A model generated the notes under the pieces. That model made no database searches and had not been told where the DNA came from. It worked only from the letters and a program-made list of their open reading frames with translations. Below are positions 50,995 to 62,279 of a stretch of 64,000 nucleotides of DNA, piece by piece; position 1 is the stretch's first letter; every line of letters starts with the position of its first letter. Origin of the DNA: Bacteroidota bacterium (GTDB taxonomy: Bacteria; Bacteroidota; Ignavibacteria; OLB7); the NCBI GenBank assembly GCA_018266795.1, contig JAFDZV010000006.1, positions 1 to 64,000 of the forward strand, in the 5' to 3' direction. Made by a program: the position numbers and the translations under genes.

Positions 50995-51432
50995 CTACCG
51001 GCAGGGGCAGGTGATCTGCGCCGAGATTGTGGGCCGCACGATCAGCCCCCAGCAGAGGCTGGCGCCTCGTTCGAGGCAGACATCCACGCAACAGACCGGC
51101 GTGGTGGCGGTGTTGATGTTGATCAGGCAGCCGCCAACCGGAACCGGCAGCCAACTGTTGCCGCACTGTTCAACATCGATCGAAAGCCCAACCTCGCACG
51201 GAATGTTTACCGTTGTGCCGTGCTGAACAGTCACACGCTCGTCAACGCCGGACGGATGATGAAGAAGAAAGGTGACGTCGCATGCAACATCCTTCTGAAC
51301 CGTCAACGGGATCTTGTCGCACGGGCAGTCCGGGATCTGCGCACGCAGCAGAGCCGGAACAACCAGGAAGAGCGCTGCGACCGAAAGAAGCAGAACCGCA
51401 CGCCGCACCACACTGCGTATGTTCGTTTGCAT
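50995..51432 (-). CDS. Secreted cysteine-rich protein, paralogue of the gene at 51894
   Basis: A 145-residue exported protein. A signal peptide (RAVLLLSVAALFLVVPALLRAQ) precedes a domain with about 13 cysteines (PDCPCDK, VACDVTFLL, NIPCEVGLSIDVEQCGNSW, VGGCLININ, VCCVDVCLE, LCWGL, ITCPCR). The spacing matches the divergently encoded protein at 51894-52286: a V-x-V-x-x-G-T strand, then IPxCxV, then CGN, VGxC, CCxxxC, and a final CxPC. GGAGG six bases upstream of ATG 51432 supports the start. The domain is unknown to me; the cysteines are probably disulfide-bonded in the periplasm or outside the cell. Confidence 0.8.
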   Translation of the reverse strand: MQTNIRSVVRRAVLLLSVAALFLVVPALLRAQIPDCPCDKIPLTVQKDVACDVTFLLHHPSGVDERVTVQHGTTVNIPCEVGLSIDVEQCGNSWLPVPVGGCLININTATTPVCCVDVCLERGASLCWGLIVRPTISAQITCPCR

Positions 51433-51893
51433 GGTAAACCTCCACAGTTTGAATTCGGAAATGGAATGCACAGGGATGCCCGCAGCAACGCGTGGCTGCA
51501 GACCGCCTGTGCACGGCAACTTCCGATGCCGCCGATTCAGGCAACAGTACATGTTGAGGTACCGTTCGAATGATCCGGGCGGCGATGGCTGATCCGCCCG
51601 GCACCAGGTGCGGCCCCCGTCGGCAGAGACGGATTGCACCGTAAACCGGCGGCGAAGACTGCCGGTCATCCATTCGCCCGCAATGTCCAATCGCCCCCCT
51701 CTCCCTCCTCTTATCACTGTGCAGCCGATTACCGCCACATGCGCAGCGGCTGCCGGCCCCCCGTTCCCCTCCATGATTCCGATCCGTTAACACCGATCCC
51801 GACACCGTCCGCAACAGCATCGAAGGCTGCCCCGCCGGCAACCGGAGCGGACGGAATCCGCTTCATCCATACATCATCGAGGAGAACCGAATC
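51433..51893. other. Divergent promoter region of the cysteine-rich pair
   Basis: About 460 bases between the start codons of two divergently transcribed secreted Cys-rich genes. It should hold both promoters; I see no convincing -35/-10 pair, hairpin or gene. Confidence 0.4.
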
Positions 51894-52286
51894 ATGACAG
51901 CACGCACATCCATTTCACGCCCAATGCTGGTGATCGCGTCGGTCATCACCGCAGTGATCGCGATCACCTTCGCCGCACCAAGCGCGCAGGCCGGTTGCTG
52001 CACCATCGGTGTGGACAACCAGTCCAACTGCACGTTCCAGATCTGCTTCGAGACACCGGCAGCGATCCGCTGCGTTGACGTGAACCTCGGCGCAAACACG
52101 TACGACATTCCGAACTGCGTCGATGTCCGCATCGCCATCCGCGACAACTGCGGCAACGTGCATGTGTTCCCAACGGTGGTCGGTGACTGCATCGTGGTTC
52201 CGGTCCCCGGCTTCTGTTGTCTCCGCATCTGCAAGGTTGCCGACTGTCGCTACGTGATCAAGCAGATCATCTGCGATCCGTGCTGA
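51894..52286 (+). CDS. Secreted cysteine-rich protein, paralogue of the gene at 50995
   Basis: A 130-residue exported protein. A signal peptide ends AAPSAQA; the mature chain has about 14 cysteines (GCCTIGV, NCTFQICFE, IRCVDVNLG, IPNCVDVRIAIRDNCGNVHV, VGDCIVV, FCCLRICKVADCRY, IICDPC). Paired strands with a conserved CGN and a CCxxxC motif align with the protein at 50995-51432, although overall identity looks low. GAGGAGAA before the ATG supports the start, and a terminator follows at 52328. No function is known; the two look like a small structural or interaction domain exported together. Confidence 0.82.
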   Translation: MTARTSISRPMLVIASVITAVIAITFAAPSAQAGCCTIGVDNQSNCTFQICFETPAAIRCVDVNLGANTYDIPNCVDVRIAIRDNCGNVHVFPTVVGDCIVVPVPGFCCLRICKVADCRYVIKQIICDPC

Positions 52287-53045: not shown

Positions 53046-55670
53046 ATGAACCAATCTCTACGAGCCCTCATCATGCGTTCTCTGATTCCGTGCATCCTCC
53101 TGCTCGCCGCCGCGCCCGCGTTCGCGAAGCCGGTCGGCATCGACGTTGCGCGCCGCGTTGCCGTTGCGCAGTATCGCACAGCATCGCCTGTCGATCCGAT
53201 GCAGGCGATGCTGGCAAGCGAATCGTTCCCGCTGGTCTACCAGCAGCGCTCGGCCGTAGCCGCCGCGGACACGCAGAGCATCTATTATGTCTTCAACACA
53301 CCGGACGCTCACGGCTTCGTGGTGGTGGCGGGTGACGACGCCGTAGAGCCGATACTCGCATACTCCACGGAGAGTTCCTTCTCGCTCGATCGCCCGTCGC
53401 CGGAATTCCTCTGGTGGATGCATCGGTACGAGCGCCAGATCGTTGCGGTGATCGCACGGAATCAGGCCGCCTCCGAACGCACGCAGCGCATGTGGATGAA
53501 GCTCGGCGCAGCCGCGCCCCCGGCGCTCCTTCCACTCCCGGTGCAGAGCAGCGTAACGGTTGGTCCGCTGGTGACGACACAGTGGGACCAGGCTCCATAC
53601 TACAACGACCTCTGCCCGTTCGATCCCGTTGCGAACGACCGCGCCGTTACCGGATGCGTTGCCACCGCGTTTGCGCAGATCATGAGGTATCATCGCTCGC
53701 CGGAGCATGGCAACGGTGACCACGGATATTCGCACCAGCTGTACGGGTATCTCTACGCAAACTTTGCGAACGCCACGTACGACTGGAACTCCATGCCCGA
53801 ACGCCTCACCGGTCCCAATCAGCAGGTGGCCCAGCTGATGTATCATATGGGCGTATCGTGCGACATGGGCTACGGTACAGCCGCGTCGGGCGGCAGCGGC
53901 GCCGATCCGAAGGTGGCGGCGGCCGCGCTCGTACGGTACTTCGGCTATCAATCCAGCGTCCGCGATGTGGAGCGGAGCGATTACGACGACAATACATGGA
54001 TGAACATGATCCGCGCCGAGCTGGATAACTCCCGCCCCGTGGAGTACCACGGCTTCGGCGACGGCTCCGGACACTCGTTCGTGTGCGATGGCTACAACGG
54101 CGCCTACTTCCATATGAACTGGGGATGGGATGGCCAGTTCAACGGATTCTTCCTCCTCTCGAACCTGGAGCCGGGCGGCGTTGGAGCCGGCGGCGGCAAC
54201 GGAGCCTACAACAACGATCAGGGCGCGGTGATCGGCATCGTTCCGGATCACCCGACGCCCGGCGAGGCAACGCTGGAAATGAATGCGGACCTGAGCGTGG
54301 ATCCGAACCCGGCCACGACCAACAGCGTGGTCACGGTCTCCTTCGACCTGCACAACACCGGCACGTCGGATTTTCAGGGCGACTATTGCGTGGCACTCTT
54401 CGATGAGAACGGAACGTTCGTAAAGTATCTGGGCGGCGTCTGGACAAACATGCAGTTGCATGCCAACAATCACTACGTCAACGGCCTCACCCACAAGGAC
54501 ACGCTGTTCGGCGTCTATCCGGGAACGTACTATACCGCGGTCTACGCCCGCCCGACCGGCAAGGAGTGGGAGTTGGTAAGCGGAGGCTCGTATCAGAATT
54601 CCGTAACGCTGGAGGTGACAACGGCAACGTATCCCTCGGAGCTCGCGATCTACGTTCAACCCGCGGTCGCGCCGTCGCAGATACATGTGGGCGAAACGTT
54701 CACGGTGCATACGGACTTCGCCAACATCAGCTCCGATGATTTTCAGGGCGACATCGGCCTCTGGGCGTATACAATCGATGGAGGCCGGCTGGTCGGGGAG
54801 ATCCAGGTTCTTCAGGGGCTTTCACTTTCCGCAAACAGCCACTGGGTGAACGGCCAGACATTTACCTGCTCAGGGCTCAACGTGAAGCCGGGGAGATATC
54901 TCCTTGCATTCTTCAGCCGGCTTACCGGTGACGACTGGCAGGTGGTAAATCCCGGCGACTATGTGAATCCGATGATCGTGGACGTTCTTCCCAGCGTGCT
55001 CGGGCCGGACCGCTACGAACCGAACGACGCCAGCAGCAGCGCCTACCGGCTTTCGATGAATTATTCCGGCAACGTCGGCATTGTCACAACTGCCGGAGCG
55101 AATATCCACGCCAGCGGAAACGACGACTACTATCGCATCGATCTCCCCGAGGGATACGACTACGATATCACCGGCATTCTGCACGACAGCTGGACGGATG
55201 ATCCGGACACCTACACGAACGTCGTTTCGGTGATGGTGAACGCCGGCGACGGCTGGTCCGCTGTCTACGAGGACAGCACCGATGTGATGCACGTGCCCGG
55301 CGGACGGAGCGTACTGTTCAAAGTGCAGGCGCTCTATCTCGGCTCCCTCGGCACCTACCAACTGGACATTCGCGCCACACGTCAGGTGTCCGGAGTAAAC
55401 GGTCCGGCCGCGTCCCCCGGTGCGGAGCTCTCCGTCTATCCCGTTCCCGCAACGAACGAGTTGAACGTGCAACTCGCTTCCGGTCTTGGCCATGATGTCT
55501 CGCTGCGCCTCGTGGATGCCGGCGGGCGAACGGTTGCGGAGCGAACCGGCATCGTCGCAGGCACCGATCCGGTACGGTTCAGCCTGGCCGGCGTTCCGTC
55601 CGGAGCCTATTTCCTCGTTGCCGAAACCGGGCACGGGCGCTTCACACGGCCGGTTGTCGTACGGCGGTAA
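53046..55670 (+). CDS. Secreted C10 (streptopain-like) cysteine protease with sorting domain
   Basis: An 874-residue exported protease. A signal peptide (LIPCILLLAAAPAFA) is followed by a propeptide with the Spi-like IYYVFNTPDAHGFVVVAGDD strand pattern. The catalytic domain at about 175-400 has Cys204 in RAVTGCVATAFAQIMRYH and His343 in GSGHSFVCDGY, followed by FHMNWGWDG, the complete C10 signature. From about 410 to 650 there are two CARDB-like beta-sandwich units, then a pre-peptidase C-terminal-like domain (DRYEPNDASSSAYRL). The C-terminal 80 residues (LSVYPVPATNELNVQL, RLVDAGGRTVAE, LAGVPSGAYFLVA) are a type IX sorting domain. It would act outside the cell or at its surface. Confidence 0.95.
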   Translation: MNQSLRALIMRSLIPCILLLAAAPAFAKPVGIDVARRVAVAQYRTASPVDPMQAMLASESFPLVYQQRSAVAAADTQSIYYVFNTPDAHGFVVVAGDDAVEPILAYSTESSFSLDRPSPEFLWWMHRYERQIVAVIARNQAASERTQRMWMKLGAAAPPALLPLPVQSSVTVGPLVTTQWDQAPYYNDLCPFDPVANDRAVTGCVATAFAQIMRYHRSPEHGNGDHGYSHQLYGYLYANFANATYDWNSMPERLTGPNQQVAQLMYHMGVSCDMGYGTAASGGSGADPKVAAAALVRYFGYQSSVRDVERSDYDDNTWMNMIRAELDNSRPVEYHGFGDGSGHSFVCDGYNGAYFHMNWGWDGQFNGFFLLSNLEPGGVGAGGGNGAYNNDQGAVIGIVPDHPTPGEATLEMNADLSVDPNPATTNSVVTVSFDLHNTGTSDFQGDYCVALFDENGTFVKYLGGVWTNMQLHANNHYVNGLTHKDTLFGVYPGTYYTAVYARPTGKEWELVSGGSYQNSVTLEVTTATYPSELAIYVQPAVAPSQIHVGETFTVHTDFANISSDDFQGDIGLWAYTIDGGRLVGEIQVLQGLSLSANSHWVNGQTFTCSGLNVKPGRYLLAFFSRLTGDDWQVVNPGDYVNPMIVDVLPSVLGPDRYEPNDASSSAYRLSMNYSGNVGIVTTAGANIHASGNDDYYRIDLPEGYDYDITGILHDSWTDDPDTYTNVVSVMVNAGDGWSAVYEDSTDVMHVPGGRSVLFKVQALYLGSLGTYQLDIRATRQVSGVNGPAASPGAELSVYPVPATNELNVQLASGLGHDVSLRLVDAGGRTVAERTGIVAGTDPVRFSLAGVPSGAYFLVAETGHGRFTRPVVVRR

Positions 55671-55701: not shown

Positions 55702-55740
55702 GCCTGCACCCTCGCGTTGATACAGCGCGAGGGTGCAGGC
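55702..55740 (+). terminator. Strong intrinsic terminator of the C10 protease gene
   Basis: A 15-bp perfect stem (GCCTGCACCCTCGCG / CGCGAGGGTGCAGGC) with a 9-base loop followed by ATTATT, 31 bases after the protease stop. It separates this gene from the convergent RHS region. Confidence 0.92.
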
Positions 55741-55800: not shown

Positions 55801-56493
55801 CTACCACGTGATGGCAGATGAGGCGGCGTCATCAAAGAAATATGGATAGTCCCCAAGGAAGGGAATCACGATGCCGGGATATCCAAAGAAGGTGACCCTC
55901 CTGCCAGTGAAGAATCGGCCGTCCCAGAGATGAATTCCCCCCATGATGCATGCGGCCGACGAGCACTGGTTGTTGAAGTTCATCCAGGTGAAATCAGGGA
56001 ATCCCCAGCCACCGGGCATGTAACAGCAGCGCCCGGACCACCGCGGATCACCGAACAGGCCTACCGAATGCGAGATCGGCCCCTTGAACGGATCGTACTC
56101 CGAAAGGAGCCGTATGAATCCGTTCGCATCATCCCGGCCGATTTTTGCATCGGCAAGTACTTTGAAGAAATCGGTGGTGTACTTCTCGACCGCTGATGCC
56201 TGCATCGGAGCAAGAGCCTTCTCCTGAACGTCCGTCAGATTTTTCTGGGCGCGATCGAAAATGGCATGCCCCTTCATCAGCTCAACCGCCAATCCCTCCT
56301 TCCCGGCCCACTCATTCAGTTTTGCCTCCGTGGTGAATCCGAATGCCGAATCGTTGAGGCCGTGATATGCGGCTGCAACCACAAACGGTACGGCCTTTGC
56401 ATCGGTTGCAGTCCACGCCCGGTCGCTTACTCTCTTCTGATCGACAAAGAAGGCGGTGGGCTTCGTGTTTGGAGTAGACATGCTGGTGCTCAT
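55801..56493 (-). CDS. Beta/gamma-crystallin-domain protein in the immunity position of the last RHS cassette
   Basis: A 230-residue protein without a signal peptide. Residues 1-135 are helical and unassigned (KNLTDVQEKALAPMQASAVE). The last 85 residues contain two crystallin-type Greek-key motifs: VGLFGDPRWSGRCCYMPGGW ending NNQCSS, and GIHLWDGRFFTGRRVTFFG ending DDAASSAITW. Both endings match the (N/D)(N/D)xx(S/T)S calcium-binding consensus of microbial beta/gamma-crystallins. The ATG overlaps the stop of the preceding RHS fragment, as expected of a translationally coupled cassette partner. It could be immunity, an inhibitor or an effector; at 230 residues it is much larger than the other downstream genes of the array. 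Confidence 0.78.
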   Translation of the reverse strand: MSTSMSTPNTKPTAFFVDQKRVSDRAWTATDAKAVPFVVAAAYHGLNDSAFGFTTEAKLNEWAGKEGLAVELMKGHAIFDRAQKNLTDVQEKALAPMQASAVEKYTTDFFKVLADAKIGRDDANGFIRLLSEYDPFKGPISHSVGLFGDPRWSGRCCYMPGGWGFPDFTWMNFNNQCSSAACIMGGIHLWDGRFFTGRRVTFFGYPGIVIPFLGDYPYFFDDAASSAITW

Positions 56494-56889
56494 TGGAAGG
56501 TGTAGAATGATACGGTGTCATCAGTGTGCAGCCAACATACCGCGCCGCCGGGTGGAATACAATGAACGGCCCCACTGCCGTTCCGCCCGGTCGCATTCCT
56601 GAACATCTCCACGTAGCCGCCGACGGTCTTGGTGGGCTCAATCAGCAGACGAAGCGTCGGGCAGACAGGACATACGTACGTGTCAATGATCTCCGACGAG
56701 AAGTCTTTGTAGAGATCCTTCCCGTCGGTCGGGATCGTCGGCGCCGCCTGCATGCCGGTGGGATCGGTGAGCCGCACCGGGTTGTCCGCGCAGTAGGCGT
56801 AGGGGCTCGTTGCCCGGTCCGTCTCCCACAGCCGGTCCGGGCTCGGGAAGTGTCCGGTCTCCGGATCGTACCGGCGATCCGAGAGGTCC
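56490..56889 (-). pseudogene. RHS fragment, cassette F: short tip, no native start
   Basis: The frame carries the RHS core end from LSDRRYDPETGHF through [19 protein letters not shown], a shortened pre-toxin ([20 protein letters not shown]) and a brief divergent tip (SGAVHCIPPGGAVCWLHTDD). RHS homology begins at about 56889, five bases after the stop codon of the neighbouring immunity gene, and has no ATG; the first possible start is a GTG at 56777. The long variable domain and the Ala/Pro linker of the other cassettes are missing, so this copy is probably a remnant. Its stop overlaps the start of the crystallin-domain gene by four bases. Confidence 0.7.
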
Positions 56890-56893
56890 TACG

Positions 56894-59011: not shown

Positions 59012-59353
59012 CTACCAAATGAATACCGGTCCGTTTGGCACTGGAATAAGATGCAGTGCCTCCGGACCGACCCGACTTCCCGGGTCGAGTTTGATCGTCA
59101 ATATCCAGTTACCCGCGAATCGAATGGCGCACTCTTCATTATCTCGGAATTTCAACTCGGCAACGGTTCTCCCAATTAATGAACATAGGGCGTCACGCGA
59201 TCCATTTGCTGGGAATGACACACTCATCTCGTCACGAGTAATATTCGAGCTCGCAAGACACCGCAGCACAGGGCCATCGAATTGCACTTCAAAATAGTCT
59301 CGGACAAAGCAAATCGTTGATACTTCGAGGCCAACAAGTTCCTGTAACTCCAT
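59012..59353 (-). CDS. Probable immunity protein of cassette C (DUF6188-like)
   Basis: A 113-residue beta-rich protein (LVGLEVSTICFVRDYFEVQF, RDALCSLIGRTVAELKF, CAIRFAGNWILTIKLD). Its pattern resembles the cassette E immunity protein and DUF6188-type proteins. GGGAGAG upstream of ATG 59353 decides the start; it begins 34 bases after the cassette C stop. Its TAG stop is followed directly by the truncated cassette D. It is less GC-rich than the flanking RHS DNA. Confidence 0.75.
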   Translation of the reverse strand: MELQELVGLEVSTICFVRDYFEVQFDGPVLRCLASSNITRDEMSVSFPANGSRDALCSLIGRTVAELKFRDNEECAIRFAGNWILTIKLDPGSRVGPEALHLIPVPNGPVFIW

Positions 59354-60390: not shown

Positions 60391-60609
60391 CTATCGAAGT
60401 TCCAGCGAGCCTGCCTTTCCCCCCTTTAATGCGTATTCAACTGCCTCCTGCCAATCGCTGACTACTGCTGGATCGCCAGGTGTACCATCTAGCAGCAAAG
60501 ACAAATCACTCAATAGCATCCCTACGCCATCAGACTGCGTTCTTTTCCAGAACTCCTCCAGGAAGTGAACCATTGCGGCATATGCCTGTTCGCTTGTCAA
60601 TTCGCTCAT
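60391..60609 (-). CDS. Orphan immunity-type gene, paralogue of 62061-62279
   Basis: A 72-residue protein nearly collinear with the cassette A immunity protein: TSEQAYAAMVHFLEEFWKR, LLSDLSLLLDGTPGDPA and WQEAVEYALKGGKAGSLEL in both. GGAGG seven bases before ATG 60609 decides the start. It follows the cassette B immunity gene by 86 bases but belongs to the cassette A type, and no matching tip lies directly upstream. It probably protects against a tip that is no longer here. Confidence 0.8.
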   Translation of the reverse strand: MSELTSEQAYAAMVHFLEEFWKRTQSDGVGMLLSDLSLLLDGTPGDPAVVSDWQEAVEYALKGGKAGSLELR

Positions 60610-60695
60610 ATATGATTCCTCCATTGTACATACGTTCACACTTACATTAAAAGCTGGCGCGGCTTCTGACCGATTCGATTCGCGAGTCATGCATA

Positions 60696-61070
60696 TCACG
60701 GAGCAACTTCAACCTGAAGTTCTCGGCAGACAACTTCAAGCGTAGATCCGCTATGCAAGTAAAGCGAAAACACCAAATTGTTCTGCAAGGATATCTTGTC
60801 CAACCTTTCCGCAAGTTCATCCGAGATGGCCGGAAACGCGCGATCGAATACTTCCGGTCCTTTCACGGCCCAGGCGATATGATTGACCGCAACGATATCT
60901 ACCGCCACGAGAACGAGATATTTACCATTCCAAGGCGGATACCCCGCATCATCATGACAACGCATTGCGATTCGTAGCAATCGGCCATTATTACGGGAGG
61001 CATCGTATGTGATGTTAAACACCTCAGCGTCGTGTAGCCACCCTAATTCATCCAATGTTGTTGACTGCAT
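60696..61070 (-). CDS. Probable immunity protein of cassette B
   Basis: A 124-residue soluble protein (TLDELGWLHDAEVFNITYD, GRLLRIAMRCHDDAGYPPW, LVFSLYLHSGSTLEVVCREL). Its ATG immediately follows the stop of the cassette B tip, so the two are translationally coupled. The HDAEV start and the SGSTLEV strand recall a family of small beta proteins often found beside toxin tips. The immunity role is inferred from position. The coding DNA is markedly less GC-rich than the RHS core. Confidence 0.75.
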   Translation of the reverse strand: MQSTTLDELGWLHDAEVFNITYDASRNNGRLLRIAMRCHDDAGYPPWNGKYLVLVAVDIVAVNHIAWAVKGPEVFDRAFPAISDELAERLDKISLQNNLVFSLYLHSGSTLEVVCRELQVEVAP

Positions 61071-62060: not shown

Positions 62061-62279
62061 CTATCCAAGTTCCAGTGAACCCGCCTTTCCTCCCTGTAAA
62101 GCATATTCAACCGCCTGTTGCCAATCATCTGTAATTGCAGGATCGGCGGGCGAGCCGTCAGGTAGCAACGACATGATGCTCAGAAGGTCCCCAACCTCGA
62201 GAAAGTTTGAACGCTCCCAATACCCCAGCAGAAATTGGTACATAGCTGCATAGGCTTGTTGATCCGTCATTGTCTTCAT
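62061..62279 (-). CDS. Probable immunity protein of cassette A
   Basis: A 72-residue helical protein (TDQQAYAAMYQFLLGYWERS, LLSIMSLLPDGSPADPA, WQQAVEYALQGGKAGSLELG). GAGG six bases before ATG 62279 supports the start; it follows the cassette A tip by 16 bases. The small size, coupling and a paralogue elsewhere in the array support an immunity role. A terminator follows at 61986-62020. Confidence 0.82.
   Translation of the reverse strand: MKTMTDQQAYAAMYQFLLGYWERSNFLEVGDLLSIMSLLPDGSPADPAITDDWQQAVEYALQGGKAGSLELG

Follow-up and report, generated by a model that had tools for sequence, protein, structure and literature searches.

A predicted calcium-type beta/gamma-crystallin protein encoded at the broken distal end of a bacterial Rhs array

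In the window, by which we mean the whole stretch of 64,000 nucleotides analysed, the last gene of an array of displaced Rhs tips encodes a 230-aa protein whose residues ~143-230 very probably constitute a beta/gamma-crystallin domain, the homology to known members being transitive and running through a small group of relatives. Two canonical clamps of the (N/D)(N/D)xx(S/T)S type are present in this domain, which by its sequence would bind Ca2+. With respect to function, a stand-alone calcium-binding crystallin-domain protein situated at a deletion junction is slightly favoured over an orphan immunity protein, although we place this reading at just short of an even chance.

Results

The gene and its surroundings

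The open reading frame begins with ATG, ends with TGA and is a real gene: its frame ranked highest of the six for codon usage (+0.149 log-odds per codon), and it did so in the N-terminal and C-terminal halves alike. Candidate starts are M1 (56493) or M5 (56481). The locations of the features discussed here are listed in Table 1.

Table 1. Location of features at the distal end of the Rhs array.
Feature	Position	Strand	Content or context	Basis
230-aa protein gene	55801..56493	-	N-terminal region and C-terminal predicted beta/gamma-crystallin domain	ORF list, codon log-odds
Predicted beta/gamma-crystallin domain, residues ~143-230	55804..56067	-		HMM of relatives, PDB profile matches, signature pairs
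N-terminal region, residues 1-142	56068..56493	-	no detectable homologue; no signal-peptide-like hydrophobic segment	hydropathy
Rhs remnant ("cassette F fragment")	56490..56777	-	last ~25 codons are unique sequence	blastn, tblastn
Unique spacer, 74 bp	56494..56567	-	between end of Rhs homology and start codon	
Hairpin, 15-bp stem	55702..55740	.	between convergent C10-type protease gene and crystallin gene; terminator-like position	

The hairpin downstream of the gene has a predicted folding energy of -35.1 kcal/mol (z -4.9) and gave a palindromic blastn match; its exact pattern occurs as a single copy in the source genome, and no clear T-run follows it on either strand. The convergent neighbour (53046-55670, forward strand) encodes a protease of C10 (streptopain) type, which has both an I69 Spi-type inhibitor domain and a Por secretion tail. 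A full-length relative of this protease, 50-52% identical, is encoded in a genome of the same genus, where the surroundings are otherwise unrelated; synteny with that genome is uninformative, as the protease alone is common to that stretch. Further away, two small Cys-rich, secreted-looking proteins without a Pfam match, alike by eye, are encoded back to back (50995-51774, reverse strand, and 51894-52286, forward strand). The four further genomes of this family do not have the crystallin gene, which is therefore no long-standing member of the lineage's gene set.

Evidence for a beta/gamma-crystallin domain

Two Greek-key signatures of the form [FYW]x4[FYW]xG are found in the C-terminal part of the protein, FGDPRWSG at residue 147 and WDGRFFTG at residue 190, and they are followed by the clamp sequences NNQCSS (residues 174-179) and DDAASS (residues 221-226), each clamp starting 27-31 residues past the start of its own Greek-key signature. 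Two such signature pairs in order occurred at a frequency of 2e-5 among 200,000 shuffled versions of the protein, and only one of the 384 stop-to-stop frames of the window has them. 

Genome searches revealed seven relatives with a crystallin domain, apparently all belonging to a single genus within the class, and all of them stand-alone genes (179-228 aa, in seven genomes). An HMM built solely from the crystallin part of these seven relatives scored 22.1 bits against residues 143-230, compared to 8.3 bits for the best of 5,000 shuffles. When all six frames of the window were scanned with the family HMM, the crystallin ORF was obtained with an E value of 1.8e-5, the next best match having 3.5. 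When a profile of five relatives, lacking the window protein, was compared with solved structures in the PDB, the E values went down as far as 4.6e-6, and each of the 48 best matches was an entry of the crystallin superfamily; a search with all eight sequences had the same outcome, with Protein S, spherulin 3a and clostrillin among the matches. Also, four of the relatives pass or touch the cut-off of PF00030 (Pfam Crystall). The window protein itself yielded nothing convincing in Pfam, NCBIfam, PHROGs or in phmmer searches against the PDB, so the evidence for the domain was assembled stepwise via the relatives. A single-sequence structure model of the 230-aa protein, built without an alignment, reached a pLDDT of 31, too low for any fold to be read from it. 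In summary, the calcium-type crystallin identity and the two clamp-ending Greek-key motifs proposed in the first-pass annotation of this DNA are supported by profile homology, signature statistics and the alignment columns described below.

At the thresholds used, Pfam Crystall was detected in 5/245 genomes of the class and in 2/395 sampled genomes of the phylum. No close relatives were encountered in phages, plasmids or IMG/VR, nor in genome contigs beyond the apparent single genus, by pattern-based searches that are sensitive to close relatives only, and weak matches at nine further loci (L002-L007, L012, L025, L074) were judged to be due to chance. Elsewhere in the class, a 523-aa protein of genome G502 (L026:1495-3066, reverse strand) has a Cys-rich stretch followed by several crystallin domains, of which some have canonical clamps. 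Another locus encodes a 100-aa stand-alone crystallin-domain protein (L072:1492-1794, reverse strand) near what by eye appears to be a GNAT-type toxin-antitoxin pair and near a nucleotidyltransferase-like gene.

The calcium-clamp sequences

NNQCSS and DDAASS of the window protein align with columns in which the relatives have SDTTSS, SNIASS and FRRTRS, or DKAARS, DRAAAS and similar sequences, respectively. Both canonical motifs are thus present in the window protein, whereas none of the seven relatives has either of them. In vibrillin, each motif is marked by YxxxxY/FxG and N/D-N/D-x-x-S/T-S signatures (PMC3551895). Like the microbial calcium-binding beta/gamma-crystallin domains of vibrillin, Protein S, spherulin 3a, M-crystallin and clostrillin, the domain described here comprises two Greek-key motifs within ~85-90 residues, an aromatic-x4-aromatic-x-G sequence in each motif and two canonical N/D-N/D-x-x-S/T-S clamps. 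In contrast to this group, the window protein has a single C-terminal domain behind ~140 residues of other sequence and is, taken alone, too divergent for detection by Pfam or phmmer.

The N-terminal region

For residues 1-142 no credible match was found in 65 related genomes, plasmids or the PDB. The relatives, for example those encoded on JAJPIO010000009.1 (L034), JAJPIQ010000071.1 (L033) and JAKAIL010000072.1 (L035), are uncharacterised proteins that resemble the window protein in having an N-terminal region, of ~95-144 residues, ahead of one C-terminal crystallin domain. The homology of the crystallin domains is statistically supported, whereas overall identity is 18-23% and the N-termini are not demonstrably homologous. 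A pairwise alignment had suggested full-length homology to these relatives (genus g12), which was rejected when a separate HMM of the N-terminal part scored -0.1 (rank 734 of 5,000 shuffles). The earlier description of this region as helical is unsupported, its best basis being the single-sequence model, with pLDDT values below 40 there. By hydropathy, the protein has no signal-peptide-like hydrophobic segment, and it lacks a Por secretion tail. All four cysteines are located in the C-terminal domain, and residues 1-138 have none.

The Rhs array and its broken distal cassette

At contig positions 67711-74979 lies a full Rhs gene encoding 2,422 aa. Downstream of it, displaced tips and small genes on the same strand form an array, in which the crystallin gene comes last. 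Several slots of this array are occupied by the immunity-type families SUKH, DUF4265, DUF6896 and DUF6188; only the first is well established in immunity, whereas the other three are presumed to be of this type on general grounds or from their position.

In the distal cassette, Rhs homology to the other cassettes extends from 56892 to 56567 (blastn) and then stops; a tblastn match covered 56565-56891 and revealed one in-frame TAG. Linker and toxin domain are absent from this cassette, and the end of Rhs homology at 56567 implies that the cognate toxin region is gone. The ~25 unique codons that terminate the remnant form an open frame up to an ATGA, in which the ATG of the crystallin gene shares four bases with the TGA of the remnant, as the first-pass annotation had noticed. 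Its further remark that the gene lies exactly where immunity genes sit holds approximately: the slot is right, but the gaps between tip and next gene amount to 0, 2, 15, 25 and 34 bp for the five further tips of the window that were checked, and the crystallin gene is the sole case of an overlap. A promoter-like sequence in the spacer, TTGGCT-17-TATCAT (9/12), is not significant, since the stretch has 2 such matches and 0.8 are expected. The crystallin gene is read in a frame different from that of Rhs, which stops at the TGA, and stops lie upstream in the crystallin frame. With its separate frame and its own start, the crystallin gene is not a fused Rhs tip. The slot is therefore the right one, but the cassette is broken just where evidence for immunity would be located.

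Composition and size

At 230 aa, the crystallin protein is the longest of the 14 slot gene products, the 13 others ranging from 72 to 164 aa. Its codon score of 0.149 compares with -0.31 to 0.143 for the 13 other slot genes, which makes it marginally the most native-like, and its GC3 is 0.67 versus 0.48-0.62. The crystallin gene lacks the purine-rich leader that precedes five of the window's other slot genes; such a leader is likewise missing from 48 of 67 resident-type ORFs, the crystallin gene being included in this count. The DUF4265 and SUKH slot genes, with codon scores of 0.143 and 0.136, have no obvious leader either. Composition was discarded as proof of origin, the contrast being clear with five slot genes and the score only marginally the highest against all 13.

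Neighbourhoods of the relatives

The relatives lie beside a ~120-aa secreted-looking protein (6/7), an XRE regulator together with an IrrE/M78-like gene, or prolyl-tRNA synthetase, gene neighbours that are unrelated to those in the window. Homologues next to Rhs tips in other genomes had been suggested as a check, and none of the seven relatives has Rhs in the flanks examined (mostly 1.5 kb, in some cases 5-16 kb); for the crystallin domain, these seven were found in unrelated contexts only, an outcome that the first-pass annotation had named as one that would tell against its own reading. In six of the seven genomes (L018-L022, L024), the crystallin gene follows the conserved ~120-aa protein despite differing downstream neighbours, and the two might be a functional pair. 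This small protein does not match the pair at 51-52 kb of the window, as shuffles score higher, and a shared partner gene was therefore rejected.

Discussion

In the favoured explanation, a deletion or recombination would have taken out the linker and toxin of the distal cassette, along with any immunity gene, and the same event would have fused the Rhs remnant to the DNA 74 bp ahead of the crystallin gene, which thereby became the last gene of the array. The product, a protein without a recognisable export signal, would consist of an N-terminal part providing a specific partner or location and of one C-terminal calcium-type crystallin domain, in which each Greek-key motif supplies half of the paired clamp. 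Like those of Protein S, M-crystallin or vibrillin, this domain would bind two Ca2+ and be stabilised thereby. The protein would most likely work on its own. Such a stand-alone protein is preferred because of the domain evidence, the end of Rhs homology 74 bp upstream, the loss of linker and toxin and the in-frame stop in the remnant, and because the relatives are not associated with Rhs, none of the 13 other slot genes is as long, its codon usage is marginally the most native-like and the purine-rich leader is missing. Several observations speak against it: the gene is on the same strand, directly after an Rhs tip and last before the hairpin, the place expected for an immunity gene; the ~25 unique open codons ending in ATGA resemble the 3' end of a lost toxin; the gene is missing from the four other genomes of the family, and the codon and leader contrasts are weak.

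An orphan immunity protein, the surviving half of a toxin/immunity cassette, is a tentative but serious alternative. The linker and the greater part of the toxin would in that case have been lost by an in-frame deletion that spared the last ~25 toxin codons and the immunity gene. The product of this gene would protect the cell by binding, in the cytosol, incoming toxin of that lost type, with the crystallin domain acting as a toxin-binding scaffold, perhaps stabilised by Ca2+. The open tail of the remnant, the ATGA overlap on the same strand, the last position in an orphan Rhs array with immunity-type families in other slots and the lack of an export signal by hydropathy are all in agreement with this, and it is established for Salmonella that main rhs genes can be followed by orphan rhs-CT/rhsI pairs (PMC3967940). 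As in such modules of Salmonella and others, the array has displaced tips that lie downstream of a full Rhs gene, and a small gene on the same strand comes after each tip. However, the distal cassette differs from them in lacking linker and toxin, and the downstream protein, at 230 aa, is larger than those of the other slots. In addition, no relative is found beside Rhs in the examined flanks, the chance of an ATGA overlap in an open frame is ~0.1 by our own estimate from frame and codon counts, and no immunity protein with a crystallin fold appears in those parts of the literature that were searched, a polymorphic-toxin survey included. Each of these points, for or against, is weak. The earlier proposal of an immunity role has its support from position, on the same strand and after an Rhs tip, and the absent cognate toxin and the lack of Rhs beside the seven relatives in the examined flanks count against it; taken together with the supported domain identification, the first-pass interpretation is partly supported. 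That an Rhs immunity protein here uses the calcium-clamped domain to bind its toxin, with protection possibly Ca2+-dependent, appears rather doubtful.

Crystallin-fold inhibitors and antimicrobial proteins exist, such as the Streptomyces metalloproteinase inhibitor and killer-toxin-like folds, and together with the four cysteines of the C-terminal domain, which could make disulphides, and the adjoining convergent gene for a secreted C10-type protease, they could suggest a lectin-like, antimicrobial or protease-inhibiting secreted effector, acting alone or as an Rhs payload. We consider this improbable, as the protein has neither a signal-peptide-like segment nor a Por secretion tail nor an inhibitor match in Pfam or NCBIfam, the neighbouring protease has an I69 inhibitor domain of its own, and the separate frame and start argue against a payload fused to Rhs. 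Even less probable, to the point of being negligible, is a chance ORF antisense to another coding sequence with coincidental motifs: GC-rich DNA does yield many long spurious ORFs, but profile homology, the best codon usage of six frames and the signature pairs at 2e-5 contradict it.

Crystallin domains are rare in the phylum, and the member described here is beyond detection by Pfam yet keeps both canonical clamps, of which its detectable relatives have none. If it were an immunity protein, it would add to Rhs immunity a fold absent from the literature searched; if it is not, the case cautions against calling immunity genes from position only where an Rhs array has decayed at its end. Elsewhere in the array, four slot genes without a confident Pfam family, all on the reverse strand (59012-59353, 60391-60699, 60696-61070 and 62061-62279), are candidates for new immunity families.
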